Source: Kordiimonadaceae bacterium (GTDB lineage Bacteria > Pseudomonadota > Alphaproteobacteria > Sphingomonadales > Emcibacteraceae). From it: DNA of 64,000 nt. Made by a program: the position numbers and the translations under genes. Numbering within the stretch: position 1 is the first letter of the stretch; each line of letters opens with the position of its first letter. The notes beneath the pieces are model-generated. The model searched no databases. It was not told where the DNA came from and worked only from the letters and a program-made list of their open reading frames with translations. The stretch is from contig JABGYD010000069.1 of assembly GCA_018675425.1 (NCBI GenBank), positions 1 to 64,000 on the forward strand, in the 5' to 3' direction. Positions 44,588 to 63,247 of the stretch are shown here, in pieces.

Positions 44588-45727
44588 ATGAAAAAAATTT
44601 GGATTGTGGGTGGGGAAGATATACATATGCGCCTGCCATTACTAAAATTGCTAAAATTCCGAGGGTTTGATGTAACCGCCGTTGGCACCGGTCCTGGAAC
44701 GGCATTTATAGGGAACAATATACCTTACTTCGAATACAAAATGAATCGTTTTTTATCACCAATTTCTGATCATCAAACTATTAAAGAATTGACTAATTTA
44801 TTTATAAAACACAAACCAGATGTAGTACACGGGGTAGATACTAAACCTGCTATATTTACCGCTATAGCAGGTAATAAGGCTAACATAAAAGGCATCATGC
44901 GTACAATTACTGGTATGGGATATATTTTCTCATCTCATTCACCGCTTGCATTTCTATTGAAACCCATATACCGATATTTACAGAGAAAAGCAGATAAATT
45001 TGCTCCCCTTACCGTATTTCAAAATCCTGATGATCAAGACTATTTTGTTCGCCACAATATGATTACATCCGATCGCTCACGATTAATACTTGGATCCGGT
45101 ATTGACCTTGGATCATTGAACAAGACCATAATTACGGAAAAAATTAAGACGGATTTAAAACAACAATTAGGATTAAATAATGAAGTTGTTTTCTTAATGA
45201 TTGCTCGACTGGTTAAACACAAGGGTGTAGTTGAATATTTAAAAGCAGCGAGAGAAACAAAATTGAAAACAAATAAAAAAACCTGCTTTTTACTTGTTGG
45301 GCCAACTACAAATGAAGGTGGGCAAGCAGTATCACTAGATACTATTAAAAAATATAGAGATGACGTCGTGTATTTAGGTGCACGCAATGATGTTCCCGTA
45401 TTATTAACAATTTCTGATGTATTTGCATTACCAACATATTACCGTGAGGGCGTTCCACGCGTATTAATGGAAGCTTCGGTTATGGGATTACCACTTGTAA
45501 CTACGGATATGCCAGGCTGCAGAGAAGTTGCACTTGATGATGTTACAGGATTAATTATACCTCCGCGAAATTCAACTAAAATGGCTGATGCTTTTGTAAA
45601 ACTTGCTGAAAATAAAAAATTACGTCAACGGCTGGGGGCAGCTGGATCGACCCATATAAAAAATGGTTTTACTTTAGAACAAGTCGCCGAACAATATATC
45701 CAAATATATAATTCGTTAATAAATTAA
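44588..45727 (+). CDS. Family 4-type glycosyltransferase
   Basis: The 379-residue GT-B protein opens with KKIWIVGGEDIHMRLPLLKLLKFRGFDVTAVG, an N-terminal Rossmann domain, and has the GT4 C-terminal domain: FLMIARLVKHKGVVEYLKAA, FALPTYYREGVPRVLMEASVMGLPLVTTDMPGCREV with the EGxxRVxxE donor motif. It adds a sugar, probably cytosolically, to the lipid-linked repeat unit. It leads the plus-strand half of the polysaccharide locus and is followed by the flippase. Confidence 0.85.
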   Translation: MKKIWIVGGEDIHMRLPLLKLLKFRGFDVTAVGTGPGTAFIGNNIPYFEYKMNRFLSPISDHQTIKELTNLFIKHKPDVVHGVDTKPAIFTAIAGNKANIKGIMRTITGMGYIFSSHSPLAFLLKPIYRYLQRKADKFAPLTVFQNPDDQDYFVRHNMITSDRSRLILGSGIDLGSLNKTIITEKIKTDLKQQLGLNNEVVFLMIARLVKHKGVVEYLKAARETKLKTNKKTCFLLVGPTTNEGGQAVSLDTIKKYRDDVVYLGARNDVPVLLTISDVFALPTYYREGVPRVLMEASVMGLPLVTTDMPGCREVALDDVTGLIIPPRNSTKMADAFVKLAENKKLRQRLGAAGSTHIKNGFTLEQVAEQYIQIYNSLIN

Positions 45728-45770: not shown

Positions 45771-47318
45771 ATGACAAGGTCAACTGAGCAACTAAATATG
45801 TATAAAAATACCGCTAAACTAACAGCACAAAACTTTGTAGCGTCGAGCGGTATTGCAGTCGTTGCAATATTATTATCAAGTTTGTTAAGAATTATAGTAA
45901 TGGGCGTTTTATCCAGAATACTAGTGCCCGAGGCTTACGGACATTATATAATCGGATACGGGTTAATAATTATTTTGTCTGGCACGGCACAATGGGGTAT
46001 GCCAAATGCGATGCTTCGCTGGGGAGCAGTCGAGTTTTATGAGCAACGCTTTCAAAGCCTAAAAGCATTTATGTATTTTGGCTTATTCATTACCCTCGCG
46101 GCAATGATGACTTTAGGCGCTATTTCTTTTGTTTTTGTAGAACAAATTATAGGACTTTTAGGTAACTCTATAACTATTTATGAATTTAAGTTATTTTTAA
46201 TATCTGGACCATTAATAGTAACCGTTGAAATTTTTGCTGCTATAGCAAGGAGTTCTAAATCTATAGGTTGGTATTTCTTATTAAAAGAAATTATTCCCTC
46301 CACAGTTTTATTATTACTCATATTAATGGCTTTTTATATGAAGATGACGACTGAAACAGTAGTGATATGTTTCATCCTTTCTTACTTAATAACTTTTTTT
46401 GTTGGATGGGGTTACTTAAAAAGACATTTCTTTAAGGACGTACAAGCCAAGTGGTTAGCAACCAAATATTCAAAAAAATCAATTTTCATTTTTGGGATAT
46501 CTATTGCCCTTATTGGATTTTTGAGTCTCACTAAAGATAGAGCCATAATCTTCCTTGTTGCGACCTATAACGATGCAGCTGCTGCAGGTATTTTCTTCAA
46601 TGCTACTCGATTAGCTATGTTAATGACAATTATTCTTTCAGGAATTAATGCAGTCCTAGCCCCACAAATTGCAATCTTATACGAAAATGGCTCGATCCAT
46701 GAAATACAAATACTTTATCAAAGAATAGTTAAGTGGATCATTTTTTTAATTACACCAGTTGTCATTATTTCAGTACTTGAAGCTGATTTAGTAATGTGGA
46801 TTGTTTTTGGTTCTGAATATGGATTGGCGGGACAAGTTTTTATAATATTTGCCTTATTCCGCTTTTTCAACCTTATTTGTGGCCCAACCGGGATCGTTAT
46901 ACAAATGACTGGAATTGAACGTTTAGACGTATATGCAAACGCTCTGAGCTTGGCGCTTGTTACGATATCTTTGATAATAGTACTTCCTAAATACGGCCTT
47001 TATTGGGGAGCAGTTGCTTCTGGGGTTGTGGGCTTATTAATTGACATGCTAAGAGTCTGGTTCATAAAAATAAAAATAGGAATTATACCAATCAATTTAA
47101 AAAGGGTTGTGACATTATGTGGTTTAATTATAATAGTATTCGCGGCAAGCATTGTTATAAGTAAATTTAAAATTAGTGAAGGAATCCATTTCTTTATTAC
47201 TCTTTCCTTAGCAAGTTTGACAGTAATAATTTCATGGAAAACATTATTGAACAATGAAGATAGGTTTTTATTAATTCAATTGATAAAAAATATAAAGAAA
47301 TCATCACTTGGAAAATAA
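45771..47318 (+). CDS. Wzx-type polysaccharide flippase
   Basis: The 515-residue protein with about 14 membrane segments is of the MATE/MOP superfamily Wzx branch. SLLRIIVMGVLSRILVPEAYGHYIIGYGL is near the N-terminus, and SLTKDRAIIFLVATYNDAAAAGIFFNATRLAMLM starts the second half. Such flippases move undecaprenyl-linked repeat units across the inner membrane. It fits with the Wzy-like and Wzz-like genes on the other strand. ATG 45771 or the in-frame ATG at 45798 may be the start. Confidence 0.85.
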   Translation: MTRSTEQLNMYKNTAKLTAQNFVASSGIAVVAILLSSLLRIIVMGVLSRILVPEAYGHYIIGYGLIIILSGTAQWGMPNAMLRWGAVEFYEQRFQSLKAFMYFGLFITLAAMMTLGAISFVFVEQIIGLLGNSITIYEFKLFLISGPLIVTVEIFAAIARSSKSIGWYFLLKEIIPSTVLLLLILMAFYMKMTTETVVICFILSYLITFFVGWGYLKRHFFKDVQAKWLATKYSKKSIFIFGISIALIGFLSLTKDRAIIFLVATYNDAAAAGIFFNATRLAMLMTIILSGINAVLAPQIAILYENGSIHEIQILYQRIVKWIIFLITPVVIISVLEADLVMWIVFGSEYGLAGQVFIIFALFRFFNLICGPTGIVIQMTGIERLDVYANALSLALVTISLIIVLPKYGLYWGAVASGVVGLLIDMLRVWFIKIKIGIIPINLKRVVTLCGLIIIVFAASIVISKFKISEGIHFFITLSLASLTVIISWKTLLNNEDRFLLIQLIKNIKKSSLGK

Positions 47319-47447: not shown

Positions 47448-48185
47448 ATGATTTTTTTTCCGAATAAAAGCAAAAAATATACTCCTTTAATTCTAGCATA
47501 TCATAGAGTGTGTGAAGAAGATTGTGGGGACTCTCTTGCGTCTACTCTCAAACAATTGAAATGGCACATTATTTTTTTAAAAAATCGTGGATATAAATTT
47601 TGCACATTGAACCAATGGGCTACAGGAACATTCTCCTCAGACCCGTCGAAAACAGCAATTTTAACATTTGATGATGGTTGGCGTGATAATTACGAACTTG
47701 CTTTTCCATTACTAAAAGAACTAGGGGTTTCTGCCACAATATTTCTTATTGCCGACTATATTGGATTAAGTAAATTGCCCGATGGTATGGTCCAAGCAGA
47801 AGGAAGGCGATTTCTTACATTAGAAATGATTAAAGAAATGTCAAAATATGGCATTGACTTTGGCTCTCACACCTTAACACATAAGGTATTAACAGAGTGT
47901 CCTAAACAAGAAGCCTTCACCGAATTAGCAGGCTCAAGAGATAAATTAAATTCTTTATTAAAGAGTGATGTTATCATCATTTGTTATCCTAAAAGCCAAG
48001 TGAATGAGGACGTCATCAATGCAGCAATAAAGGCTGGATACAAATATGGGGTAGTAACCCAACCATTCCGTAAGCCACGCAATAAATTAGTTTCTCCGTT
48101 AGCTTTATCAAGAATAGGACTGTATTCTAAAGACAATAAACTGCGCTTCCTAATCAAGTATTTCAATTTTTTGATAAGAAACTAA
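47448..48185 (+). CDS. Polysaccharide deacetylase (NodB homology domain)
   Basis: The 245-residue protein has the carbohydrate esterase 4 pattern: ILTFDDGWRDNYELAFPLL (the DD metal/catalytic motif, about 70-80) and FGSHTLTHKVLTECP (HxxxH metal motif near 140). There is no obvious signal peptide, so it may act in the cytoplasm on a lipid-linked intermediate. It would N-deacetylate an amino sugar, giving a free amine. The next gene starts 5 bp later. Confidence 0.86.
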   Translation: MIFFPNKSKKYTPLILAYHRVCEEDCGDSLASTLKQLKWHIIFLKNRGYKFCTLNQWATGTFSSDPSKTAILTFDDGWRDNYELAFPLLKELGVSATIFLIADYIGLSKLPDGMVQAEGRRFLTLEMIKEMSKYGIDFGSHTLTHKVLTECPKQEAFTELAGSRDKLNSLLKSDVIIICYPKSQVNEDVINAAIKAGYKYGVVTQPFRKPRNKLVSPLALSRIGLYSKDNKLRFLIKYFNFLIRN

Positions 48186-48190
48186 TAATA

Positions 48191-49249
48191 ATGAATGCAA
48201 CAACTTACATAGTCGATCATTGGACGGGAACAGATACTGAGTGGGACAACCTAGTATTCAAAAGTCCTTCACCTCACCTACTACAATCTTCAAGTTATGC
48301 TCGTGCAAAAGAAAGATCCGGCTCAAAAATTATTTTTTTAAAATGGGTTGATAAACATGAAAATATCATTGCAATAGGTACGGCTATCATTCGAAAAAAA
48401 ATAGGCTTGCAGATAGCCTTTTTTCCTAGAGGCCCTATTTTCTTAGAACCACTTATCAAGATTCTAGTTAAGAATGTATATACAGCACTGCGGTCTTTCT
48501 GTAAGTCTTCAGGTATCATTTGGGCCAAGGTAGCTCCTACAATTCTGTTAGAAGAAGCGACATGGTATGACAACACGATAAATTCTGCGAATGTATTATA
48601 TGTAGGGTCAAGAAATATTCATGCAAGAACGAGTGTGGTTCAGTTAAGTTCTGGTGTTGATTCTGTTCTTAAAAGCTTTGAGTCCAGATTACGGTATAGT
48701 ATCCGAAAATCGGACATGGAGGGTGTCGTTATATCTCAGGGAGCAAATGCAAAAAATATTGACGCTTATTGTTTGCTTGCCGGAAAGACCAGTGAACGAG
48801 GTGGTTTTTCAATAAAGGACCAAACTTTTTATTCTCAATTTTTAGGTGACGAATTTAATCAATTTTCAAGATTATATGTTCTGTTTAAAGACGATGTACC
48901 TCTCGCTGCAGCGATAGTTCTAACAGATGGAGGAATGGCAACCTACCTATGGGGTGCTTCAGCGCGAGCACCAAAGAAATTTTCGCCGGGAGCGGTTTTA
49001 CATTGGGAAATTATAAAGAAGTTAATTGATGAGAACGTTAAAACATACGATCTGCAAGGTATTCCTTTATATCCAAATGAAAAAGATAAAAATTGGGGAG
49101 TTTACCTTTTCAAACGTGGATTTAAAGGACAAGAGAAAACATATGTTCCAGAAACAGATATTTTCTCTTCATCTATAATAAGTTTTATTTTGACTGTTAT
49201 ACTTGGCAAAAGAAAAAAGAAAGATCTGCCTCTAATCAACCAAGCCTAA
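48191..49249 (+). CDS. FemAB-like GNAT-fold acyl/aminoacyl transferase
   Basis: The 352-residue protein has a tandem GNAT layout of the FemAB/BioF2-like type: SPSPHLLQSSSYARAKERSGSK at the start, LRYSIRKSDMEGVVIS in the middle and AATYLWGASARAPKKFSPGAVLHWEIIKKL-like motif (observed as MATYLWGASARAPKKFSPGA) near 255-275. Such proteins in exopolysaccharide loci attach amino acids or acyl groups to sugars or peptides. It follows the deacetylase by 5 bp, so acylation of the amine freed by that enzyme is a plausible sequence of steps. Acceptor unknown. Confidence 0.75.
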   Translation: MNATTYIVDHWTGTDTEWDNLVFKSPSPHLLQSSSYARAKERSGSKIIFLKWVDKHENIIAIGTAIIRKKIGLQIAFFPRGPIFLEPLIKILVKNVYTALRSFCKSSGIIWAKVAPTILLEEATWYDNTINSANVLYVGSRNIHARTSVVQLSSGVDSVLKSFESRLRYSIRKSDMEGVVISQGANAKNIDAYCLLAGKTSERGGFSIKDQTFYSQFLGDEFNQFSRLYVLFKDDVPLAAAIVLTDGGMATYLWGASARAPKKFSPGAVLHWEIIKKLIDENVKTYDLQGIPLYPNEKDKNWGVYLFKRGFKGQEKTYVPETDIFSSSIISFILTVILGKRKKKDLPLINQA

Positions 49250-49284: not shown

Positions 49285-50040
49285 TTAATTGTCATTATTT
49301 TTTTGAACTATTAAACTAATCACAACACGATTATTATTTGGAATAAACCACTCAAATAAAATACAGTCAATTGCGTACAACCAAGTACCTAATCTTTTTA
49401 CTCCTAAATCTGTAAAACTCAGAAATCCGAATGTTTTCCACTTATATTTCCCCAAAGATTGCACTTTATTAATATATTTATTAGGAGAAAAATAGTTCCA
49501 TGGCTTGCTATTTTTTCTATAATTTTTACGCATATAATCATGCATAAAAGTTCCTCTCACATTTTCAGCTAAAGCTAAATACCCACCGGGCTTAACTGCC
49601 TCCCAAGCCGCATCTATACCTTTAGACCAGTTATCACAATCATTTAATTTAGAAATTCCTCCTAGGACTGATTTCATACAGACAATATCAAATTCTTCAT
49701 TGAAGGGCATTTCAAATATATTTAATGGGATAACATTAACTGTTCCATCCAATTCTAAATCCATATTTTTCAAAAAGTGTTCAGGAGAGTCTTTAGGTAA
49801 AGGATAATATCCTAATGTACAGTCTGCCCCCTTATCTGCGAATACAAGTGAGACGGCAGATCTCTTATTTGCGCCTATTTCTAGCACTTTCATATTTGAA
49901 AAATCACTACCAGATAAACATTCTCCCCAATACCGAATTGCCCGGGACCAAATACCGAAGTTCCAAACGATTGTGTAATCAATAAGTTTTTTAGAGAGGA
50001 AAGTACCGATTATTTTATGTTTTTTATTTTGTTTTTTCAC
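49285..50040 (-). CDS. Class I SAM-dependent methyltransferase
   Basis: The 251-residue protein has a Rossmann-type methyltransferase core: MKVLEIGANKRSAVSLVFADKGAD is motif I, IVCMKSVLGGIS resembles motif II and AWEAVKPGGYLALAENVRG is the usual post-motif. It could methylate a sugar or another group of the glycan. It is the most distal gene of the minus-strand polysaccharide run, 206 bp from pntC-like, and converges on the FemAB-like gene. Target unknown. Confidence 0.7.
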   Translation of the reverse strand: MKKQNKKHKIIGTFLSKKLIDYTIVWNFGIWSRAIRYWGECLSGSDFSNMKVLEIGANKRSAVSLVFADKGADCTLGYYPLPKDSPEHFLKNMDLELDGTVNVIPLNIFEMPFNEEFDIVCMKSVLGGISKLNDCDNWSKGIDAAWEAVKPGGYLALAENVRGTFMHDYMRKNYRKNSKPWNYFSPNKYINKVQSLGKYKWKTFGFLSFTDLGVKRLGTWLYAIDCILFEWFIPNNNRVVISLIVQKNNDN

Positions 50041-50246: not shown

Positions 50247-50996
50247 TCAAACACAATCACATTTGATAATAAGTGGATAAACATCACTTTTCGCTCTAGC
50301 CAAATGGCTATGATCGTCAATTTCGGCCCAAACTAGGTTTTTTACCAACACCAAAGGTATATTCATTTCTTTTGCGACAGCGACTAGACCATCTGTTTCA
50401 TAACATATTTGAGGATTCTTAGATAAGTTTTGCTCCGCCCACTTTATCAAAAATTTATGTATAGAGGGTGTTATGAGAGAAATACCAACTAATTCTCCTA
50501 TGATGTTATTTAATTCATTAGCTTTCTTAGACATATTATCTAAAAAATCACCTTTACCAGAAACATATACTTCATCCCCAGCTTTTGTTGAGCTAGATAA
50601 TAGAATTCCACCTGTTTCAATCGCCTTTGTCAAAGATGAGAGGGCTAAACTTTCATAGATTATATCAGATTCTAGCAGATAATAAGGGGCTTTTTTAATA
50701 TAAAGCTCCACCTTATGCAACGACACCATGCTTCCGGTTGTTGCATATTCAGAATTATGAATAAGTTGTATAATATTAGAATATTTCTGATTAACGAGTT
50801 CTTCGTATTGACCTTTCAAATGGCCCGTAACAATAAAAATTTTTTCAACACCTACGCTGATTAATTTATCAATAGATTCTTCTATAATAGTTTTATTACC
50901 TAGACGTAGAAAACCTTTCGGAATTACTTTACCAATATCTTCAAGACGCGTCCCCATACCTGCTGCAAGGATAACAGCCTGTTTAATTTTAACCAT
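50247..50996 (-). CDS. PntC-like phosphonate cytidylyltransferase
   Basis: The 249-residue nucleotidyltransferase has AVILAAGMGTRLEDIGK at the start with K27 in PKGFLRLG, then HNSEYATTGSMVSLHKVEL, LLESDIIYE, AGDEVYVSGKGDFLDNMSKK and IDDHSHLARAK, the pattern of the PntC family that activates 2-aminoethylphosphonate as CMP-AEP. In some bacteria PntC is fused to the AEP transaminase; here the transaminase gene is immediately adjacent (8 bp). It can feed the CDP-alcohol phosphotransferase-like enzyme at 55769-56566. Assignment from pattern memory, not alignment. Confidence 0.8.
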   Translation of the reverse strand: MVKIKQAVILAAGMGTRLEDIGKVIPKGFLRLGNKTIIEESIDKLISVGVEKIFIVTGHLKGQYEELVNQKYSNIIQLIHNSEYATTGSMVSLHKVELYIKKAPYYLLESDIIYESLALSSLTKAIETGGILLSSSTKAGDEVYVSGKGDFLDNMSKKANELNNIIGELVGISLITPSIHKFLIKWAEQNLSKNPQICYETDGLVAVAKEMNIPLVLVKNLVWAEIDDHSHLARAKSDVYPLIIKCDCV

Positions 50997-51004
50997 TTAC
51001 AAAC

Positions 51005-52099
51005 TCACTTTTGAGATAATTTTTGAAAAACATTAATTAGTCGATCAACATCTTTGTTTTGGATATTTCCCATATTGGCAATTCTAAACATACTTCCTTC
51101 AAATCCACCTTGTCCGGCATAAATAATAAAACCAGCTTCATAACATGTCTCGTGAATTTCTTCATAAGTTAAATAATCTGGAACATTGAATGAAGTAATC
51201 ATAGAACTATAATCATCTGTGCGTAAATATGTATAAAAGCCAAGATTATTAAGTTCACTTTGGATACGTTCTGACAATTCCTTATAACGTTCATGTCGAG
51301 CTTTGATACCACCACTTTCTTCTAATTCATCAAGCGCCGCTTCAAGTGCAAAATAGTTATGTACCGCTTGAGTAAAAGGTGAGAAGCCTTTTTTTTGTGC
51401 TTGATAATAAGGGATTAGATCAAGATAAAGGCTCATGGAATTGCTTTTTCCTAATTCAAGAAGTTCCATTTCTGCTAATACAAAAGAAACTCCTGGTGTA
51501 CCATGCAAACATTTGTTTGCAGTAGCTGCAACTGCTTTTACAGTTCCATACTCATCTAGAAAATCAAACAATTCTCCACCGAAACTACTAACGGCATCGA
51601 CTAACAAAAACTTATTATATTTTTTGCAAAGTTCTGTAACACGCTTAACATCATTCAAACGACCAGTCGTCGTTTCATTATGAACGGTAACAATGTAAAG
51701 AATGTCATTCTCACCTGACAGCAGCTTTTCCGCTTCTTCAAATTGAATTTCATCACTCCAATCAGAGGACAAGACGCAAGTCTTTTTTCCTTGGCGTTCA
51801 AGGATAGATGCCATCCGTTCACCGTAAACACCATTTGCTAGGATTAACGTAGAACTATTTTCTTTCTCAATAAAAGTTGATAACATAGCCTCAACAGCAC
51901 TTGTCCCTGAGCCTGTTAATAAAACTGCTTTATATTTATCCGCCATTTCATGATAAACATTTTCTATTTTATTTTGGATACGTTGTGCCATTTGTGCAAA
52001 ATTATTTTCTCTATGACACATATCGGGTGTAAGAAGAGCTTGGCGCACCTTGTTCGATAAAGTAACTGGGCCAGGATTGAGTAAAATATGTGAGCGCAT
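51005..52099 (-). CDS. phnW: 2-aminoethylphosphonate--pyruvate transaminase
   Basis: The 364-residue class V PLP aminotransferase opens with LLNPGPVTLSNKVRQALLTPDMCHRE, as in PhnW. The PLP Lys is in ATANKCLHGTPGVSFVLA (normally SANKCLQG), preceded by LVDAVSSFGGE. It interconverts AEP plus pyruvate with phosphonoacetaldehyde plus alanine; in this context the aminating direction is expected. Its ATG overlaps the stop of the decarboxylase (TAATG), so the two are coupled. Confidence 0.92.
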   Translation of the reverse strand: MRSHILLNPGPVTLSNKVRQALLTPDMCHRENNFAQMAQRIQNKIENVYHEMADKYKAVLLTGSGTSAVEAMLSTFIEKENSSTLILANGVYGERMASILERQGKKTCVLSSDWSDEIQFEEAEKLLSGENDILYIVTVHNETTTGRLNDVKRVTELCKKYNKFLLVDAVSSFGGELFDFLDEYGTVKAVAATANKCLHGTPGVSFVLAEMELLELGKSNSMSLYLDLIPYYQAQKKGFSPFTQAVHNYFALEAALDELEESGGIKARHERYKELSERIQSELNNLGFYTYLRTDDYSSMITSFNVPDYLTYEEIHETCYEAGFIIYAGQGGFEGSMFRIANMGNIQNKDVDRLINVFQKLSQK

Positions 52100-53235
52100 T
52101 AATTTTCTTCCATAAATTTTTTTAATCTAATAGATACCTCATGTGGCGTCACGTTAGGTCGAGGTAAGTTTTCTGGTAGACCTGCTGAGATACTCATATC
52201 AATAAAAGTTAATTCTTTTGTGAGGTTTTGCAAGGTATTACTTAATTGTTCAAGGTCATTGATTTGATTTACTTTTGGGTAACTACTTGCTGTGGCTATT
52301 GCTGAAAAATCAACAGAGTGGGCAACTGTTGATTGTCCACCCGTTGACTCATGTAAATTATTATCTAATAAAATATGAATTAAATTATTTGGTTGTTCAT
52401 ATCCTATGGTTGTAAGAGCTCCTAACCTCATTAAACAGGCTCCATCACCATCGATCACCACTATTCGATTATCAGGCCGTTGTATAGCAAGACCAAGGCC
52501 TAAACTGGATATACACCCCATTGAACCAACCATATATAGTTGATTTAAACGATCATCTAAAGCAAACAGTTCACGTCCACAAACACCTGTAGATGCCAAA
52601 ACAATATCATCATTAGTAAATTTTTGAATAACCGTTAAAGCTTCGAATCGTTTTGGTGGAATTACAGAAGTGCGCAGTCTCAATGGTGCGGGCGCCCTTC
52701 CTCGAGGAATAGGCTTAGTTAATATTTTTCTTGGCTCAGCAGTATTTTTCTTCATTACAAATGCATATGGTAAACCCGTTTCATCCATATGCTTACTTGC
52801 TTTATCCATTGCCAATGCTAGTTCTTCAGAATTATTGGGAAAATATTCCCAAGATACTCTCATAACATCTAACATTTGCGTAGTAATTTGTCCCATTAAT
52901 TCATGCTGAGGCTCGTCTGGTGCACCACCAGGTTCCCCTCTCAAGGTTACTATAATCAAAACAGGGATTTTAAACGTAAAACATAAAGATGTAATTGGAC
53001 TTACTGCATTCCCTAAACCTGAATTTTGAAATACAGCTATCCCTTTTCCGCCACCGATTGTAGCACCACTTGCAATAGCAATAGCGTCACCTTCGTTAGC
53101 AGCAGAAACATAATGCATTCGAGCTGAATCAATAATTCCGTTAATAAATGGTTTTAAATAAGAGCATGGCACTCCTGAACAGATCGAATAACCATGCTGA
53201 ATAGCTAAATCAATAAAGTAATCTGATGAGATCAT
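52099..53235 (-). CDS. aepY: Phosphonopyruvate decarboxylase
   Basis: The 378-residue TPP enzyme has an N-terminal pyrimidine-binding half ([36 protein letters not shown] with the catalytic Glu in NEGDA) and a C-terminal diphosphate-binding half ([30 protein letters not shown] with [10 protein letters not shown] completing the GDG...NN motif). It decarboxylates phosphonopyruvate to phosphonoacetaldehyde, pulling the unfavourable mutase step forward. It overlaps the mutase end by 4 bp. Confidence 0.93.
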
Positions 53236-54854
53236 CCGTTAAAAGCTCCAGCCTCGACAATATCCTCCAGACTATCAACATCTAACCAATGCCCTGTCGT
53301 GTATAATACTCTAATTTTTTCACCATCTTTTATTAATTGATTAATGAGGTGAGGCAATTTTGCTTCCTTAATATTGCCTTCTTCTAGAATGGTGTCCATT
53401 CCAGTTTTAACACGTTCCATACCATTTTTTGAAACTGTCAAAAATCCCATCCATTCACCATTAATCACTTCCTGATTAAGGCTATTACTTACTTCTTTTA
53501 ATGTAACCTGTTCACCATAATTTTGACGTGAGTTAGAATAGGAACACTTTACCCAATCGGCATGGCGGTTACGATTTCGACTTTGAGACCAATCAGCATC
53601 TACCATTATTACAAAATCATCATCAGCGTCTTGCATCATTTGAACAATATATTTATGAAACAGAACGTCACCATATGAAATTATGGTGCATTCAGATTGT
53701 TTTTGCTGCGCATCAAGTGCAAGTTTTAATGACCATAATTCACCAGTAGTTTCATATTCATCATTATCTACAAAATTTATATTTGAAAGGTTGACTGCAT
53801 CTTTTGCAAACCCCCTAACAACCGTAAGGTCCTTAATATTAATCGCATTATATGTATCAACTATATGTGATAATATCGGTTTACCGCGTACTGGCACCAT
53901 AACTTTAGGCTTATCTAGCGTAAGGTCTCCAAGATCTTTTCCTTGTGATGCTGCGAGTATTATGACAGACGTATCATCCTTTACGACTGGTAAATAACGT
54001 TTTTCTGCTTCTTTTAATTCTGCCGCACCTTGCAAACGGAAAACTTCTGAAACTGAGGCCACATTATCTTCAATCGAAAGTAAATTCTCATCTTCCATTA
54101 ATGTTTTTGTTATTTTTTGCATCGTTGTAATATTTGCACGCAATAAGTGATTGGCCCAAATTGCTATCGAAATACCACTATCTCTATATACATCGGTTGG
54201 TGTAGAATAATATTTGGTAGGCACAATTAAAACAGGGCTGCGGTCACCCCACTCTTTTTTAAAGGCTAAAATCTCATCAGGAACGGCTAAAGCGCTGTGC
54301 ATTAGAATGCCATCTGCGCCAGCTTCATGATATGCCTCAGCACGTTTCAATGCTTCTGAAAGTCCCCAACCAGCTATAAATGCTTCAACTCTGGCAATAA
54401 CTGAAAAATCATCATCTTTTTGGGCATCTTTTGCAGCTTTTATTTTACCACTAAATTCATCAATATTGGCAAGGGGCTGTGTGTGCCCTCCAATAAAGCT
54501 ATTTGTTTTAGGGAATATTTTATCTTCAATACATACGGCAGATATATCTCTCTGTTCCAATTTATTTACTAAACGTCGCATATTATTAAAGTTACCGTAG
54601 CCTGTATCACCATCAAGCAATATTGGAATGGACGTTGCATCCGACATAAATTCCAAATTATCTAAAACTTGAGTCCAGCTGGCTTCATTATTATCCCGTA
54701 CCCCAAATTGAGCTGAGATAGTCAACCCGCTACCCCATATACCTTTGAACCCGGCCTCTTCCACAATTTTCGCGCTTAGGCCATTGTGCGCTTCACAAAT
54801 AAAATCAAGTTCACCGGATTTTAAAATATTACAAAATTGAGCGTTCTTTTTCAA
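53232..54854 (-). CDS. aepX: Phosphoenolpyruvate mutase fused to a nucleotidyltransferase domain
   Basis: The 540-residue fusion has an N-terminal isocitrate lyase-like PEP mutase (about 1-285) with DGDTGYGN (D81, D83) and the signature [10 protein letters not shown] at 110-119, converting phosphoenolpyruvate to phosphonopyruvate. From about residue 295 follows an NTP transferase domain: [18 protein letters not shown], where the usual GxGxR loop is altered (Ser and Asp in place of Gly and Arg). Its donor role is thus uncertain. The start is TTG 54854 with AAAGGA seven to twelve bases upstream. It begins the phosphonate sub-operon, 22 bp after the Wzz-like gene. Confidence 0.92.
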
Positions 54855-54875
54855 TTATTATTCCTTTATATGTTG

Positions 54876-55733
54876 CTAATTTTTCATTAGCTTAGTGAAA
54901 TTTAAATGTAATATTATAAAAGTCATCGCTGCCAAAATACCACCTATAAATCCTAATATTAAAACTAATGATTTCGAGGGCCAATTATGACTTGAGGCTG
55001 GTGGATGGCTTGGTGTGTCAATTATCTCATAAGCAAAATTTGATTGAGTTCTGGCCATAGTAAGTTTTCGAAGTTCATCTTCGATTAAACTGGCCAATGC
55101 AATTTGCGTATCCATTACTTTAATATTTTGAGCTTCTGATTTCAAAAAAATCAATTTTTCATTAGAATCTACTATTGCTTTTTCGCGGGCTTCTTCATTT
55201 ACTTGTTTGATCAATAAAGTTCCCCATTCATAAGCTATTTTAGGTGATGTCCATTCAATGAATAATGTTACCAATCCAGATTTAGCATCTTGAGAAACTC
55301 TGAAAGTGTTTTTCTTAAAAAAGTTTACAGCATACCAGAGTTGCTCGCTCTCTGCAATTTTACTGTCTGGTTTTAAGGGGTTAATAATAGAAATTAGATT
55401 ATTGTTCTTAATAAAATTAGACAGAAATTTTCGGCTTTTAAACTGTTCTAGTATTGTTATATTAAGTGATGCACCGTCTGTATTGCCGGCAAGGAGCAAA
55501 GACAATTGACTATTCTGCCCACCCATCTGTGAAGACATATCTGTTGCATTTGGATTTAATACAGCTTTACTGATATATGTTTTTGGCGTTACCACTAAAT
55601 AAACAACAGCACCAATAATACCCAACAAACAAAAACACAGAATAGATTTCCAGTATATCTTTACCATAGAGATTATAACTATGAAAAAACTATCAGAATA
55701 TTGTTCTGAAATATCTTCGATTGAATCATTCAT
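54876..55733 (-). CDS. Wzz-type chain-length determinant protein
   Basis: The 285-residue protein has two membrane segments, near 25-50 (IYWKSILCFCLLGIIGAVVYLV) and 255-277 (SLVLILGFIGGILAAMTFII), flanking a periplasmic coiled-coil-rich domain. PSHPPASSHNWPSKS before the second segment is the proline-rich Wzz signature. There is no attached tyrosine kinase domain. It regulates the length of a Wzy-made polymer. The next gene upstream is the CDP-alcohol phosphotransferase. Confidence 0.85.
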   Translation of the reverse strand: MNDSIEDISEQYSDSFFIVIISMVKIYWKSILCFCLLGIIGAVVYLVVTPKTYISKAVLNPNATDMSSQMGGQNSQLSLLLAGNTDGASLNITILEQFKSRKFLSNFIKNNNLISIINPLKPDSKIAESEQLWYAVNFFKKNTFRVSQDAKSGLVTLFIEWTSPKIAYEWGTLLIKQVNEEAREKAIVDSNEKLIFLKSEAQNIKVMDTQIALASLIEDELRKLTMARTQSNFAYEIIDTPSHPPASSHNWPSKSLVLILGFIGGILAAMTFIILHLNFTKLMKN

Positions 55734-55768
55734 ACCAAAGCCTTGAGATTAATTTCAAATCTAAAATG

Positions 55769-56566
55769 CTACTCATTTGAAGCATCCGATTTAGCAGGTT
55801 TTTTTAATGTGCTTTGTATTATATCAAATTCATTCAATTTCCAAAGACATTTTTGGATTACCAATAAATTAACAATTACCAACAATAAATTGTAAATTAA
55901 TAGATACATTAAACTTATATTGAAATATACGAAAACAAATAATATTGGAAACAGAAAACCGCTAGGGTTTAAAATACTGTTGGCCATCATTTTTGATGAT
56001 TTAATAAAAGATTTTATTAGGGACACGTTATCTTCAGGTTGATTATTATTTTGAAATTTTATTTTTAACCCATAATTTGTAACTTTTTGATATAACAACC
56101 TAGAGAAAATACCTAATATTCCTGCTGATGCACCCAATACTATAATAAATTTTGGCTCTATTGGGAGGCCCATTGAATTAGATATACCAATGGATAGCCC
56201 TACTGGGAATATCGCCAATGTAACGTAGCATACAAAAGTATCAAGAAAATCTCCAACTATAGAAGGGCTCTTATAGTAGCGCGCTAAATTTCCATCGACA
56301 TGATCTAATAATATCCATAGAAAAAACAATGTACATCCCGTGAGTTTCCAAGCAACCCCAGGCATTGCAAGACAAATCGTCCCGAGCAAACTAACAATTA
56401 ATGAAATCCAAGTAACACTATTGGCTGATACACCAAATATTGCGAAGAACCAAGCCACGTAAAAAGATAGGGGCCTAACTATATATCGAACCATCATCAA
56501 TGAATCGTCATCTGCTTTTTCTTGAGGATTATATTCTTTCCGTATATCTTCGACAGAAATTTTCAT
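55769..56566 (-). CDS. CDP-alcohol phosphotransferase-family membrane enzyme, candidate phosphonate transferase
   Basis: The 265-residue membrane protein carries the CDP-alcohol phosphatidyltransferase signature at 88-113: D88-HV-D91-G92-NL-A95-R96, eight residues, G105, three residues, D109, three residues, then C113 where the family has its fourth Asp. About six to eight membrane helices follow. Enzymes of this fold transfer a phospho-alcohol from a CDP/CMP donor; beside a full CMP-AEP pathway, AEP transfer onto the polysaccharide or its lipid carrier is inferred. The missing Asp, usually the catalytic base, is a real oddity. It lies 1 bp after a glycosyltransferase. Confidence 0.82.
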   Translation of the reverse strand: MKISVEDIRKEYNPQEKADDDSLMMVRYIVRPLSFYVAWFFAIFGVSANSVTWISLIVSLLGTICLAMPGVAWKLTGCTLFFLWILLDHVDGNLARYYKSPSIVGDFLDTFVCYVTLAIFPVGLSIGISNSMGLPIEPKFIIVLGASAGILGIFSRLLYQKVTNYGLKIKFQNNNQPEDNVSLIKSFIKSSKMMANSILNPSGFLFPILFVFVYFNISLMYLLIYNLLLVIVNLLVIQKCLWKLNEFDIIQSTLKKPAKSDASNE

Positions 56567-56567
56567 T

Positions 56568-57725
56568 TTATTTATCCTCTGTATTTCGTTCTAATAAATC
56601 CAGATAAAAACTTCTATAATCTTTAACTATATTGAATATATCAAGCATTTGAATTGCACGTTCTAGGTTATAATTTCCCCAGCGCTCTCTTTCACCTTCA
56701 TCCTCATACAATTCAATTGCTCTATTAGCAAATCCATTTGCATCATTTGAATCATAACAATTACAAGATTGCTGTGGAGTTAACAACTCCACATTTGGAT
56801 CAATATTCGATGCAATTACAACTTTTTTTGAGGCCATTGCCTGCGCTATAGCTTCCGACAAGCCCTCCACAAGAGAAGGCATTATAAATACATCAATATC
56901 TTTCAAACAACTATAAACTTCACTTCGTTCAACCTGCCCTGTAAAAAATACATTATTCTCCAAACTTCTTCTCTTTATTTCCAATTCTAAAGAGTTCTTC
57001 ATCCCCCCGCCTCCAATTAATACTAATCTTATCATTGGGTGAGTTTTTACGATGGTTGACATCATTACAAGAAGTATTCCAAGGTTTTTTATTGGTTTTA
57101 AATCACTTACGCAAGCTATCAAAAAGTCTGACCCCGATAACCCTAATTTTTCATGCAATCCAAAACTTTGACTGCTCTTAATCTCATCCAAGTCCACGCC
57201 ATTATAAATGACACGCCTCTTTTGCTTCTTCATTAATGTATTAGTAAAAATATTATTCGTTTTTTCCACAGCGTTCGATACACATATGACACCATGAGAA
57301 TAGGAATAAATCACCCAAAAGAACAACCTTTTTATATTAGAGTAATCGGACATCAAGGTACCTTCAAAATTCACAACAATAGGGCAATATGATGTTAGAT
57401 TAACAAGTGCTATCATTACCATAGCTGAAAAAGTATGGTTAGTTTGCACAACATCCGGGCGCCATTGTCGAAGAATATTAAATAATACTTTTATACAAAC
57501 TAGACGACTTTTTGACCCAATACCTATCAATTGATCAGAAGTCAAATTAGGAGCCAGTTTTTTCGCTTTTCTTTCAAACTCTTCTTGGGTATCAAAACAT
57601 GAGATAATTTTTACATCAGTATTAATATCTGGCAAACGGAAGGCTCTTTGAAAAGGTCCAGTGCCCGGATTTAAAACATTTAAAACAAACATTACTTTAA
57701 TACCATCAGAGTTCTTTACTTCCAT
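56568..57725 (-). CDS. Family 4-type glycosyltransferase
   Basis: The 385-residue GT-B protein has NVLNPGTGPFQRAFRLP near the start and a GT4 domain: LIACVSDLKPIKNLGILL, VFFTGQVERSEVYSCLKDIDVFIMPSLVEGLSEAIAQAMASKKVV with EGLSE donor motif and IASNIDPNVELL. It adds a hexose-like unit to the repeat. It overlaps the sulfotransferase end by 10 bp. Confidence 0.86.
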   Translation of the reverse strand: MEVKNSDGIKVMFVLNVLNPGTGPFQRAFRLPDINTDVKIISCFDTQEEFERKAKKLAPNLTSDQLIGIGSKSRLVCIKVLFNILRQWRPDVVQTNHTFSAMVMIALVNLTSYCPIVVNFEGTLMSDYSNIKRLFFWVIYSYSHGVICVSNAVEKTNNIFTNTLMKKQKRRVIYNGVDLDEIKSSQSFGLHEKLGLSGSDFLIACVSDLKPIKNLGILLVMMSTIVKTHPMIRLVLIGGGGMKNSLELEIKRRSLENNVFFTGQVERSEVYSCLKDIDVFIMPSLVEGLSEAIAQAMASKKVVIASNIDPNVELLTPQQSCNCYDSNDANGFANRAIELYEDEGERERWGNYNLERAIQMLDIFNIVKDYRSFYLDLLERNTEDK

Positions 57726-58666
57726 AATTGATACCCTATAAAAATCCCTACGGGTGAACCAATTAAAACAAATAACATGCGAAACTGTATGGATAGTTTT
57801 TTATGCCAACTAAGGTCTGGTTTGAGCGTCACTTTTTTTTCAAAACGCAACCGGTTTCCACCTAAATTATGTCCTGATGAAATATCACCCAAACCTGATG
57901 TTGCATAAATAACTTCCTTCATATCCAGTTCAAGAAACTCCCCTATTTGAGAGAGCGTTTTATCTGGATCTTGGCATAAGTCTTCGTACCTAACATGCAA
58001 ATAAGTTCCTTTCTTCATGAAAAGCGTCGTTATGCCCGTTAATAAATTTGTCATAGACCAACTTAAAACTGCGCGCATATAATTGATCAGTGGTAATTCT
58101 GTAGATCGCTTACGTTCATCACTCCCAGTTCGTTTTATAGCCGACCAGCCCACGCCACGGCCATCTCTCGTCAACCATATAGATTTAAGTGGCATACCAG
58201 CTACTTTCCCTAAAGCTAAAGCTCGACCAGTGCAATCTCTTGTTGATTTTGATGAATCCACAACAAAATTTACAGATGCTACATCAGCTATATTTCCATA
58301 GAGTTCATTCATTCCTTCACGATAAGAAGTTTCCTCTAATTCGCTGTGAAATCCTGCAACTAGTTTCCATAAGCTTGATAATCTTTCAAATTTAAATTGT
58401 AATGTTCTCGCCTCAAATGGAGACTTCGAATTAGCCAAAATATTATTTCCGGTTAAAACATCAGACCAAAATTCACAGTCCGACAAATAATTTTCACAAG
58501 AACATTTTTCAGATTTAAGTTGCCAATCATAAATATTATTAAGCGCACCAGCACTTATTATATCAGAATGTTGCTGCAATAACATATCTAATATTGTTGA
58601 ACCACTTCGCCCGTATCCCATTATATATATAATAGTTGGCACAGAAGAATCGTCTTTAATCGTCAT
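57716..58666 (-). CDS. PAPS-dependent sulfotransferase
   Basis: The protein has about 316 residues from ATG 58666 (AGGA nine bases upstream; an upstream in-frame start at 58699 overlaps the Wzy gene more deeply). The 5'-phosphosulfate loop is GYGRSGSTILDMLLQQH at about 17-33, and VDSSKSTRDC plus LTRDGRGVGWSAIKR fit the 3'-phosphate-binding strand-helix. It would transfer sulfate from PAPS to a glycan sugar. It sits between the polymerase and a glycosyltransferase of the run, so a sulfated repeat is inferred. Confidence 0.82.
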   Translation of the reverse strand: MTIKDDSSVPTIIYIMGYGRSGSTILDMLLQQHSDIISAGALNNIYDWQLKSEKCSCENYLSDCEFWSDVLTGNNILANSKSPFEARTLQFKFERLSSLWKLVAGFHSELEETSYREGMNELYGNIADVASVNFVVDSSKSTRDCTGRALALGKVAGMPLKSIWLTRDGRGVGWSAIKRTGSDERKRSTELPLINYMRAVLSWSMTNLLTGITTLFMKKGTYLHVRYEDLCQDPDKTLSQIGEFLELDMKEVIYATSGLGDISSGHNLGGNRLRFEKKVTLKPDLSWHKKLSIQFRMLFVLIGSPVGIFIGYQLWK

Positions 58667-60140
58667 AGGTTTTATTCCTCTGAGATTTATTTTCAACAAT
58701 TTGAAAATTAGTTATTAAATATGCGATCGATCCCGTTTTCCATATAAGCCAGAAGAATAAGAAAAATGAGACCATAAGTAAAAAACCAATAAAATTTGCA
58801 AAAAACATCGTCCTTACAATCAACAATGAGTTTTGGAAAAAAAGTATATACAAAATAAGATGTATATACTTTTCACTATACAAAATAAAATAAGAATATA
58901 TGCGTCCATATACTAATCCAACTGAAAACAATCCTAATATAATAGCTGATAAACCACCCATAGTATAAAATTCCCCAAAAACGGAAACTGCGGGTGAAGG
59001 TGCACTTGTTTTAGAGGTCCAATAATTATTCACCACCCATTGCGATATAGGAAGCGGCTTATCAAATTCAAAAACACTTTGAGGAAACACTGACAAGATA
59101 AAATATTTTAAATTATAAAGCGGCATAAATTTTTCATATTCAAATACGTCAACCAATCTGGCAAAATAGTCAAAATAACTAAACATACCCCCAAGAATTA
59201 ATTGATTAACTAAAAAGAGCGCCGTCTGATCATCCCACATAATGCTTGCTGTGTTCGATTCCGATAAAGCATAGGAATAATTTCTGATTAATTTCAATCC
59301 TAATAATATTATTATTGCTAAAATTGAGAAAATACTAATCTTTGTCAACGTAACTTTTGTTTTTTTATAACTATAAATAATCAACAATGAAGCAATATAA
59401 ATAACTAGCCATTTCCTATCGTGAAACGATATGCTAATTATCACAGACATTAACGAATGTACCAAAAATAATAAATTATAATGTTTGACCTCTACGCGAC
59501 TTATTAAACTATAAAAATACAATAAATTAGCGACAATAAACATCCATGAAGTAGCAAACAAACTATATTTCCCCCCCTTATCGACATTTGCACTGGCTAC
59601 AAGAAATTCGGAAGGAGAAAAACCCGAAGACATGATATAAACACCATAACCAACCAACCCGATAATTGATAAAAAAAGAATGAGAGAGTTCACTTTAAGA
59701 GGATTGCAGTCTTTTTTAACAGGAGGTTTAGTTTTCCCCCCTACCATAAACTGATAGCCTAAATTAAATGATATATATCCAATTTGCCCTATAAATAAAG
59801 CCTTTAAACTAAGTCGAATAAAACCTTCGTGAGAGTATAACCAGTCAGAGCGATAAAAATTATCAAGGAATGCGTATAATATATATGGTCTAATTACGAA
59901 CCCTATAAAAAATAATAATGAAAAAAATGATATAGGTGAAAAATAATCTATTGAACCTTTTGCACTCTCAACCCGTAATATAAAAAACGTAATTATTAAA
60001 GAAACAATGCACGATAGATAAATAGAGCCATATTGATAAGCAAGCCACGAAAGTCCAATTAATGGCCAAGCTAATAAAACTGAGGACATTACTGAATTTG
60101 AGAGTTTTATAATGGGTACTTTAAGTGGTGAATTTAACAT
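58656..60140 (-). CDS. Wzy-like O-antigen/exopolysaccharide polymerase
   Basis: The 494-residue protein has about 12 hydrophobic segments and a large extracytoplasmic loop around 330-390 (YNLKYFILSVFPQSVFEFDKP...), the usual build of O-antigen polymerases. No sharp motif defines the family, so the call rests on topology, size and location with Wzx and Wzz genes. SFHDRKWLVIYIASLLIIYS and ALSESNTASIMWDDQTALFL lie in the middle. Confidence 0.72.
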   Translation of the reverse strand: MLNSPLKVPIIKLSNSVMSSVLLAWPLIGLSWLAYQYGSIYLSCIVSLIITFFILRVESAKGSIDYFSPISFFSLLFFIGFVIRPYILYAFLDNFYRSDWLYSHEGFIRLSLKALFIGQIGYISFNLGYQFMVGGKTKPPVKKDCNPLKVNSLILFLSIIGLVGYGVYIMSSGFSPSEFLVASANVDKGGKYSLFATSWMFIVANLLYFYSLISRVEVKHYNLLFLVHSLMSVIISISFHDRKWLVIYIASLLIIYSYKKTKVTLTKISIFSILAIIILLGLKLIRNYSYALSESNTASIMWDDQTALFLVNQLILGGMFSYFDYFARLVDVFEYEKFMPLYNLKYFILSVFPQSVFEFDKPLPISQWVVNNYWTSKTSAPSPAVSVFGEFYTMGGLSAIILGLFSVGLVYGRIYSYFILYSEKYIHLILYILFFQNSLLIVRTMFFANFIGFLLMVSFFLFFWLIWKTGSIAYLITNFQIVENKSQRNKTYDD

Positions 60141-60211: not shown

Positions 60212-60877
60212 TTAGTTTAAATTCAACTCAGGTGGTGGACTTGGCAAATTGTTTAAAATAGATTTATAAATGGTACTTTTTGAAAATAAAACCACCCATA
60301 CTGTTGCAAAAATTAATTTGAAATAGTTACTAATTGAATTGTTCTCAACATACCATTGTTCTAACTTTCCTTTATACGGAGCAATAATTTCATCATAGTA
60401 TTTTAAACGATCAATATTAAGATCCTCAAGGATTTCCTCTTCAGCACGAAACACAATAGAACCTAAACCAGATAGTCCAGGCCTCACTTTAATAATAACA
60501 TCTTGTGAAACCTTTGGGAACGCATAAAAACAGCGCTGCGTCTGGGGCCGTGGTCCAATAAGGCTCATTTCTCCTAATAAAACATTTAGCAATTGCGGTA
60601 ATTCGTTAATTTTGGTTTTTCTTAAAAATTTCCCCATTGGAAGTACCCTCGGGTCGTCTTTAACAGTTACCGTTCCCATGGACATATTCGGACTATCTTT
60701 AAGCATTGTTGCAAACTTTAACAATCCAAAAATATTTCCTTGCTTTCCTACACGAGATTGAACAAAGAATATTTCACCTTCTCCAGTTAATTTCAATAAA
60801 ATACTAATTGGAATAAGGAATGGAGACAAAACAATTAAGGCCACAGAACAAAAAATTATATCGAAAAATCTTTGCAT
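60212..60877 (-). CDS. Initiating sugar-phosphate transferase (bacterial sugar transferase, PglC type)
   Basis: The 221-residue monotopic phosphoglycosyl transferase has one N-terminal hydrophobic segment (8-28; IIFCSVALIVLSPFLIPISIL), VQSRVGKQGNIFGLLKF, and the catalytic KINELPQLLNVLLGEMSLIGPRP. It loads a sugar-1-phosphate onto undecaprenyl phosphate, the first step of repeat synthesis. Preceded in the operon by the nucleotide-sugar dehydratase (2-bp gap), which likely makes its substrate. Confidence 0.9.
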   Translation of the reverse strand: MQRFFDIIFCSVALIVLSPFLIPISILLKLTGEGEIFFVQSRVGKQGNIFGLLKFATMLKDSPNMSMGTVTVKDDPRVLPMGKFLRKTKINELPQLLNVLLGEMSLIGPRPQTQRCFYAFPKVSQDVIIKVRPGLSGLGSIVFRAEEEILEDLNIDRLKYYDEIIAPYKGKLEQWYVENNSISNYFKLIFATVWVVLFSKSTIYKSILNNLPSPPPELNLN

Positions 60878-60879
60878 AA

Positions 60880-62070
60880 TTACATTCTATTATCTAAATA
60901 TTTACCTGTTTCTTTATGACCAAATTCTGGGATCATAGTAAAAAACAATTCAACAATTTCATCTTTAGTCCAACGACCTTGTTCCTGCAGCTTTAAAGTA
61001 GTCTGGGTAAAAAAATCAAGCTTCTTTTTATCAAATTCTGGTTCAGTTTTAATCACCCCTAAATCTTCAAATCTATCTAAATCCAATAATTCATTGTCAG
61101 TAAAAAACTCCTCAAAGTCTTTTTCGCCCGTTGTATTAGTTGAAAAGAAATAGCAAGGCCATTTACCTTGGGCAGGTAATGAACTAACTAACTCCCTAGC
61201 TTCTTCTTCACTAGAACAAAGATATGGTTCATATCCTAAATTTAATAAATACTTTACAGCTATATCACTAAATGTGATCAGGTGAAGATTTTCATTTAAT
61301 TTGGGAAATAATATATCTCGGTTATCACCAAATATACAGGACATTAAGCATAACTCTCCTGATTCTTTAGGGGTAACAAAATATCTTTTAATATCATTAG
61401 GAGCAGATATTGGTTGTCCTTTTTGAATTCTTTGATTAAATCCATGTAATAATGAACCATCTGAAAATGCGACATTAGCAAAGCGGGCAGTTGAAATCGG
61501 TATTTTATGACTACGCCTCATAAGAAACATTTCCATAATCCGTTTCGAAGCCCCCATCATATTCACCGGATTTGCGGCCTTGTCTGTAGAAACACAAAAA
61601 TATTTCTTACTATTATTCTGAATAGATTGCAGAATAGTCTTATCAGTATTTTCAATATTGACTTCGATCATACGCATCAACGTATATGCATCTTTTTCGC
61701 TTCGGACGTGTTTTAATGCTGATAAATTTAAAACATAATCGTATTTTCCGTCTGAATCTATAAATGCATCATAATGTTTAGATCCAATATCAAGAGCAAA
61801 TGTTTTAAAATCACCATTAATATACCCTAAAGAACTGCGTATATCCCGCACCAACTCGACCATGTTATTTTCACTTATATCAACAACATGTAGTTTATTC
61901 GGCGAACGTTTAAATATCTCCTTAGTTACAGCCTGCCCTATAGATCCAGCGGCACCTAACACCAAAAACGAAGAGTTTGAAACTATTTTCTGTAATTCGA
62001 CTTTATGTTTTTCCATATCATTATTAAAAAGAGTGTTGGTGCGCCCAATTAACTTAAGTGTTAAATCCAT
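60880..62070 (-). CDS. UDP-N-acetylglucosamine 4,6-dehydratase-like SDR
   Basis: The 396-residue protein of the FlaA1/CapD-type extended SDR family has LVLGAAGSIGQAVTKEIFKRSP (about 34-55), DYVLNLSALKHVRSEKD and STDKAANPVNMMGASKRIMEMF, with the Met/Lys catalytic pair used in this family instead of Tyr/Lys. Such enzymes make UDP-4-keto-6-deoxy-HexNAc. It is longer than minimal FlaA1 (about 330) but lacks the CapD membrane domain. The DegT aminotransferase gene upstream by 2 bp would aminate the keto sugar. Confidence 0.83.
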   Translation of the reverse strand: MDLTLKLIGRTNTLFNNDMEKHKVELQKIVSNSSFLVLGAAGSIGQAVTKEIFKRSPNKLHVVDISENNMVELVRDIRSSLGYINGDFKTFALDIGSKHYDAFIDSDGKYDYVLNLSALKHVRSEKDAYTLMRMIEVNIENTDKTILQSIQNNSKKYFCVSTDKAANPVNMMGASKRIMEMFLMRRSHKIPISTARFANVAFSDGSLLHGFNQRIQKGQPISAPNDIKRYFVTPKESGELCLMSCIFGDNRDILFPKLNENLHLITFSDIAVKYLLNLGYEPYLCSSEEEARELVSSLPAQGKWPCYFFSTNTTGEKDFEEFFTDNELLDLDRFEDLGVIKTEPEFDKKKLDFFTQTTLKLQEQGRWTKDEIVELFFTMIPEFGHKETGKYLDNRM

Positions 62071-62072
62071 TA

Positions 62073-63221: not shown

Positions 63222-63247
63222 TAATTAATTTTTTATATAATAGAGGT

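Follow-up and report, generated by a model that had tools for sequence, protein, structure and literature searches.

Gene clusters containing phosphoenolpyruvate (PEP) mutase are common, and methane production draws on marine phosphonates. Among the systems described so far are the phosphonyl-tailoring (Pnt) clusters. About a third of the PEP mutases surveyed in that work are fused to a PF12804 domain, two nucleotidyltransferases in a single cluster have been reported, and the question of which enzyme joins the activated phosphonate to cell-surface polymers was left open (Rice et al. 2019, PMC6697681). In the open-licence literature that we searched, we found neither a later identification of this enzyme nor any description of the variant discussed below or of a CMP-aminoethylphosphonate transferase. 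Here we analyze a 64,000-nt stretch of contig JABGYD010000069.1 from a Kordiimonadaceae bacterium (hereafter the window; gene coordinates follow its numbering). It carries a cassette for 2-aminoethylphosphonate (AEP), a compound with a carbon-phosphorus bond. The cassette includes a PEP mutase fusion and two nucleotidyltransferases, and the window also encodes a membrane protein of the CDP-alcohol phosphotransferase fold (CDP-AP) that lacks the fourth Asp (D4) of its family signature. The pathway and the glycan-locus setting are of kinds already known (PMC6697681, PMC8931226), and the D4-less variant of the predicted transferase is new.

We propose that the window holds a Pnt cassette within a Wzx-dependent capsule or exopolysaccharide locus, and that its CDP-AP transfers an aminoethylphosphonyl group to a glycan; on the sequence evidence, we regard this as reasonably probable. 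Judging from their enzyme families, PEP mutase would form phosphonopyruvate, AepY would decarboxylate it, and AepZ would generate AEP by transamination. PntC, whose active-site residues also bear on its assignment, would convert AEP to CMP-AEP. The CDP-AP, with Cys at D4 and a His (His89) between the first and second Asp, might then pass the aminoethylphosphonyl moiety of CMP-AEP on to a lipid-linked glycan intermediate on the cytosolic side of the membrane. Wzx would flip the decorated unit, decoration presumably preceding flipping, and polymerization and export would follow.

A CDP-alcohol phosphotransferase-fold protein without its fourth Asp

The CDP-AP signature comprises eight residues, D1xxD2GxxARx8GxxxD3xxxD4. 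The window protein (265 aa, above the PF01066 cut-off) keeps seven of them, the three metal Asp included (D88, D91, G92, A95, R96, G105 and D109), but has Cys113 at D4; H89 lies between D88 and D91. The core fold of its AlphaFold2 model best matches AF2299 and phosphatidylinositol phosphate (PIP) synthases, AF2299 with a Foldseek probability of 1.00 but an E-value of 2.6e-3, while phmmer with the sequence alone found no match in the PDB and a profile was needed. An earlier note on this DNA had named the protein as the transferase. Fold and PF01066 agree with that role, but with Cys113 at D4 family membership alone is insufficient, and our argument for the role is based on the pairing of genes in the operon and on a D4-less relative encoded in an exopolysaccharide cluster. 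Between TM4 and TM5, D179 and its equivalents constitute an invariant Asp in an '(E/D)D' motif (mostly GFExED) common to all aligned CDP-APs, and this residue could serve in acceptor binding or as a base.

Neighborhoods of the PEP mutase fusion are rich in CDP-APs in which Gly, Val, Ala, Ser or Met takes the place of D4. We surveyed 190 genomes of the same class with a DNA pattern of the signature minus D4, which was checked on known loci first, and translated the hits; the pattern demands the x8 spacing and AR, and divergent D4-less cases may escape it. True D4-less CDP-APs occurred in 12 genomes from 11 families. All 12 were among the 28 genomes with a PEP mutase (match at E<=1e-60), as opposed to 0 of the 162 without one (p=9e-12; genomes are not phylogenetically independent), and in nine of the 12 the gene and the PEP mutase share a contig and are ~12 kb or less apart. 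A control pattern that required A as the second base of the D4 codon was present in all genomes tested (58/58), with or without PEP mutase. Across the D4-less clade the three metal Asp are kept, and 17 of 20 D4-less proteins, vs 3 of 22 that keep D4, have His after the first Asp. In seven loci (L058, L075, L088, L094, L095, L240 and L241) the D4-less gene overlaps a nucleotidyltransferase gene or lies directly against it, as does a Gly-type gene in L239; a neighboring cytidylyltransferase is a recurrent companion of these proteins. Two CDP-APs, a Gly-type together with a Val/Ala- or Asp-type, were also seen in the PEP mutase clusters of L057, L061, L065, L093, L094, L095, L075 and L058, which suggests heterodimers or two transfer steps. 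The source genome itself encodes a further CDP-AP, with the fourth Asp kept, beside a Wzx-like flippase (L238 8969-9868, contig C63).

The nearest relative found is WP_126321129 from a plasmid of Lactiplantibacillus plantarum SN35N (27% identity over 248 aa), which is also D4-less (DCIDGNIARTTHTSSKLGMYLDGISG). Its gene directly follows tagD in an exopolysaccharide cluster with a sugar transferase, EpsG and a flippase, and the two proteins group at 97/92 support in our tree. Since the window lineage is separate and groups with this tagD-linked protein, loss of D4 is not strictly tied to phosphonates and has probably occurred more than once. The same grouping led us to reject Cys113 as a sporadic mutation, as well as membership of the main D4-less clade. 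A first tree had joined the window protein to L009, a D4-keeping protein from a nonulosonate-type locus, and this placement was gone once the L. plantarum sequence had been added. We also rejected a strictly phosphonate-specific loss, as the L. plantarum gene is paired with tagD and no phosphonate genes lie in the stretch shown. The L. plantarum case comes without an evident lipid role and favors a glycan acceptor in the window.

A broader proposal, which we advance only tentatively, is that D4-less CDP-APs form a distinct glycan-decorating class. Its members would have a dedicated neighboring cytidylyltransferase (PntC, TagD or others) and would activate the acceptor by a route other than D4, perhaps through the His after the first Asp; the missing phosphonyl-tailoring transferase would be among them. 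Restricted to phosphonate-making genomes in the sample tested, the D4-less subfamily is a concrete candidate for the attachment step, and the variant renders phosphonyl transfer testable. It also probes the true role of the fourth Asp in a well-studied family of membrane enzymes.

Predicted supply of activated aminoethylphosphonate

The free PntC matches the crystallized Tde-PntC (6PD1/6PD2) at E=2e-47. Its residues R17, K27, E109, K157 and E200 correspond to R15, K25, E104, K153 and E196, for which the PntC crystal paper describes mechanistic or AEP-binding roles, and they are invariant across 12 homologues and Tde-PntC. The GxG(T/S)Rx4-8PK loop is present, as are the equivalents of K153, E104 and E196. 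The match to the crystallized enzyme and the retention of all five residues checked make the predicted supply of CMP-AEP well supported. Downstream sequence was sufficient at 86 PEP-mutase-fusion loci; of the 18 with PntC of the window type, 17 also encode AepZ, and 61 loci lack both genes (Fisher p=1e-11; loci that are related do not count as independent). That PntC tracks AepZ fits the prediction for an AEP-specific enzyme, and the fused domain is present regardless.

On sequence grounds, the identities of the PEP mutase, decarboxylase, transaminase and PntC are likewise well supported. PEP mutase scores 376.5 bits against TIGR02320 (cut-off 319.55), contains the motif EDKx5NS and matches PDB 1M1B over residues 1-289 at E=6e-125. 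The transaminase falls marginally below the TIGR03301 cut-off over its full length, and its next-best families are likewise AEP transaminases. All genes that the earlier note had named between 50247 and 56566 were recovered at its coordinates, on the minus strand, with family support, and curated matches for the pathway enzymes bear out the AEP synthesis route and the PntC that it had described. The order PEP mutase, decarboxylase, transaminase, PntC is also found in gammaproteobacteria, Gemmatimonadota and Moorena; with this recurrence in many genomes, and with long open reading frames and curated matches, the gene set is more than chance. Downstream of these four genes, many gammaproteobacteria encode sulfatase-fold proteins, and some also YidC-type proteins, instead of a CDP-AP. 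The supply cassette therefore appears modular, with its acceptor machinery exchanged between genomes. After the AEP cassette, L159 (8206-11563) and gammaproteobacterial loci like it encode a DUF3413/sulfatase-fold protein together with a YidC-family insertase, an alternative candidate for the transfer machinery. A D4-keeping CDP-AP follows the transaminase in Myxococcota and relatives (L150, L172, L173 and L174), at the place that PntC takes in other phyla. The source genome has a single PEP mutase. Since PhnJ of the C-P lyase is absent from it and no phosphonatase scores above cut-off, the two catabolic routes covered, it looks like a phosphonate producer.

The PEP mutase reading frame (540 aa) contains a second nucleotidyltransferase domain from about residue 294 to 540, which would be a second PntC-fold cytidylyltransferase. 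Its AlphaFold2 model is confident (predicted local distance difference test, pLDDT, 91.8), and the best PDB folds are PntC 6PD2, then LicC 1JYL. In place of GxG(T/S)R the phosphate loop reads ASQGKDLG, and lacking the former the domain was not classed as PntC; its relatives have AASRGxxLG, a subfamily trait. The alignment shows an invariant Lys of PK and two invariant metal-site Asp positions. We rejected decay of the domain, as the odd loop is the subfamily norm, other catalytic positions are kept and the model is confident. Full-length relatives of the fusion occur in at least 38 of 385 genomes of the same class, and also in Rhodospirillaceae, Nitrospira, Gemmatimonadota, Gammaproteobacteria and Moorena; within the same family (33 genomes) it was found in the source genome only. 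Another genome of that family (G004, L003) has a different PEP mutase with an N-terminal cytidylyltransferase fusion beside an Fe-alcohol dehydrogenase, and so resembles a hydroxyethylphosphonate-type cluster; the cytidylyltransferase and the alcohol dehydrogenase were named by reading the sequence. Many Nitrospira and other Nitrospirota metagenome-assembled genomes (L098-L148) carry fusions 60-64% identical to that of the window, mostly without AepZ or PntC of this type, and a literature search on Nitrospira phosphonates found nothing.

Glycan setting and alternative explanations

The four supply genes overlap or almost touch, forming an operon, and the Wzz-like gene sits between this operon and the CDP-AP gene (Table 1). 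G+C is 0.34-0.37 in the cassette, 0.385-0.395 in the flanks and 0.30-0.36 in the glycan genes; comparison of these values gave no sharp break that would indicate recent import of the cassette.

Table 1. Features of the phosphonate cassette and its surroundings, in window coordinates
Feature	Coordinates	Strand	Support
GT4-family glycosyltransferase	44588..45727	+	PF00534
Wzx-type flippase	45771..47318	+	PF13440 above cut-off
Polysaccharide deacetylase	47448..48185	+	PF01522
FemAB/GNAT-type transferase	48191..49249	+	PF02388 and PF13480
Methyltransferase-like protein, downstream of PntC	49285..50040	-	PF13489 21.2 bits, below cut-off
PntC, AEP cytidylyltransferase (249 aa)	50247..50996	-	PF12804 and PF00483 above cut-off
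AEP transaminase (AepZ/PhnW type)	51005..52099	-	TIGR03301 356.4 bits vs cut-off 360.8
Phosphonopyruvate decarboxylase (AepY/Ppd)	52099..53235	-	TIGR03297 396.6 bits vs cut-off 312.5
PEP mutase (AepX/Ppm) fused to C-terminal PntC/LicC-fold nucleotidyltransferase	53232..54854	-	TIGR02320, 1M1B match, AlphaFold2 fold
Nucleotidyltransferase domain within the PEP mutase reading frame	53235..53999	-	Loop ASQGKDLG, alignments
Wzz-like chain-length protein	54876..55733	-	PF02706 27.2 bits vs 25.5
D4-less CDP-AP-fold membrane protein, candidate AEP transferase	55769..56566	-	PF01066 32.7 bits vs 22
CDP-AP signature DHVDGNLARYYKSPSIVGDFLDTFVC	56229..56305	-	Pattern match and alignment
Glycosyltransferase, end 1 bp ahead of CDP-AP gene start	56568..57725	-	PF00534
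Sulfotransferase	57716..58699	-	PF13469
Candidate Wzy polymerase	58656..60140	-	TIGR04370 34.6 bits, under 40-bit cut-off
Initiating sugar-phosphate transferase	60212..60877	-	PF02397
Nucleotide-sugar genes Polysacc_synt_2, DegT aminotransferase, GalU	60880..63952	-	PF02719, PF01041, PF00483

Capsule-locus components present are Wzx (PF13440), the initiating transferase (PF02397), the chain-length protein (PF02706) and Wzi (PF14052). GalU crosses the window edge and is complete on the extended contig stretch L236. Beyond the window the contig encodes GalU, Ugd, epimerases, PGM/PMM, Wzi (PF14052, E=5e-62), CysNC and CysD, and a Wza-like protein, the exporter, is encoded on another contig of the source genome. 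The Wzi gene adjoins CysNC and CysD, which serve 3'-phosphoadenosine-5'-phosphosulfate (PAPS) synthesis (L236 9874-14146, contig C66, right of the window). These genes and the sulfotransferase within the window suggest that the polymer is probably capsule-like and probably also sulfated. For the Wzx/Wzy/Wzz glycan locus claimed in the earlier note, Wzx, the Wzz-like protein and the glycosyltransferases (PF00534) hold up, and Wzy is weakly supported. Its phosphonate-decorated polysaccharide is still the best reading, given the AEP supply, PntC and the Wzx-dependent setting; the PEP mutase fusion, the missing D4 and the Wzi-CysNC-CysD neighborhood had escaped it.

Several observations weigh against glycan decoration by this CDP-AP. 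D4 has been proposed as the catalytic base, and the D93N change in a PIP synthase removes nearly all activity with substrate binding intact (PMC4634129), so the protein could be inactive or otherwise employed. The C-terminal half is poorly modeled (pLDDT ~40 in places), the protein lies outside the main alphaproteobacterial D4-less clade, and the Wzy candidate stays under its cut-off. In Prochlorococcus, where the genes have a comparable setting, it was the protein fraction and not the polysaccharide fraction that contained the phosphonate (PMC8931226).

An alternative that we consider unlikely is phosphonolipid synthesis, in which the CDP-AP would put AEP on diacylglycerol or another membrane lipid in a CEPT/EPT-like manner and the cassette would merely lie within a glycan locus. 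CDP-AP enzymes are classically phospholipid makers; clusters of Burkholderia and Nostoc that combine PEP mutase, a nucleotidyltransferase and a CDP-AP have been proposed to make phosphonolipids (PMC5987646), and a Mycetohabitans cluster points the same way. Moreover, a His has been proposed by its authors as the base of CEPT1 (PMC10156783), and such a base would tolerate loss of Asp4. However, Asp4 is retained in the Burkholderia-type CDP-APs, which make up a clade of their own, and the nearest relative of the window protein belongs to an exopolysaccharide cluster. In addition, its length is close to that of 6-TM enzymes described with soluble acceptors, as opposed to the longer eukaryotic lipid enzymes (PMC4634129), and glycan genes surround it.

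It is improbable, in our view, that the CDP-AP is catalytically dead, acting as a scaffold or heterodimer partner while the FemAB-like protein, a glycosyltransferase or another transferase attaches AEP. The absent base and the near-fatal PIP synthase mutation speak for such a role, as do the many alphaproteobacterial clusters with two CDP-APs, in which a D4-less protein often accompanies one that keeps D4. Against it, both the window protein and the D4-less clade keep seven of the eight signature residues, D4-less proteins retain the invariant Asp (D179) and mostly the His after the first Asp, and there is a single CDP-AP in the window cluster, just as a single D4-less one stands beside tagD in L. 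plantarum. Very unlikely is a further final product (AEP that has been hydroxylated or N-acylated, for instance) together with activation of a second phosphonate by the fused nucleotidyltransferase: two PntC-fold domains share the cassette, the fused one also occurs at loci without a nearby transaminase or window-type PntC, and related clusters have dioxygenases, but family scans recognized no dioxygenase or alcohol dehydrogenase in the cassette, and the specificity residues of PntC match the AEP enzyme.

Comparison with known systems

The proposed glycan decoration by a D4-less CDP-AP sets the window beside several described systems. The glycan loci of Prochlorococcus and SAR11 (Acker et al. 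2022, PMC8931226) similarly combine PEP mutase with PglC, Wzx and polymer genes, in producers mostly without phosphonate catabolism; their phosphonate was recovered with protein, and in the window the Wzi and sulfation genes suggest a capsule-like polymer. Clusters of Burkholderia, Mycetohabitans and Nostoc (PMC5987646; NC_014718) share the grouping of CDP-AP, cytidylyltransferase, aepX fusion, aepY and transaminase, whereas CDP-APs of the Mycetohabitans/Burkholderia type keep Asp4 and fall in another clade, and no Wzx or Wzi was seen in the stretch inspected. The L. plantarum SN35N cluster also places a cytidylyltransferase beside a D4-less CDP-AP in a flippase/polymerase locus, but its donor would be CDP-glycerol rather than CMP-AEP, and phosphonate genes are absent from the stretch shown. 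With the canonical CDP-APs (AF2299, PIP synthase and CEPT1) the window protein has in common the fold and seven of the eight signature residues, and it differs in its Cys at D4. Finally, the Pnt clusters unite PEP mutase, AepY, AepZ and PntC as the window does (PMC6697681). They have LicD-like phosphotransferases or glycosyltransferases nearby and their transfer step was left open, whereas no LicD-like protein was recognized among the window genes scanned, and a D4-less CDP-AP-fold protein is found instead, within a Wzx/Wzi locus.

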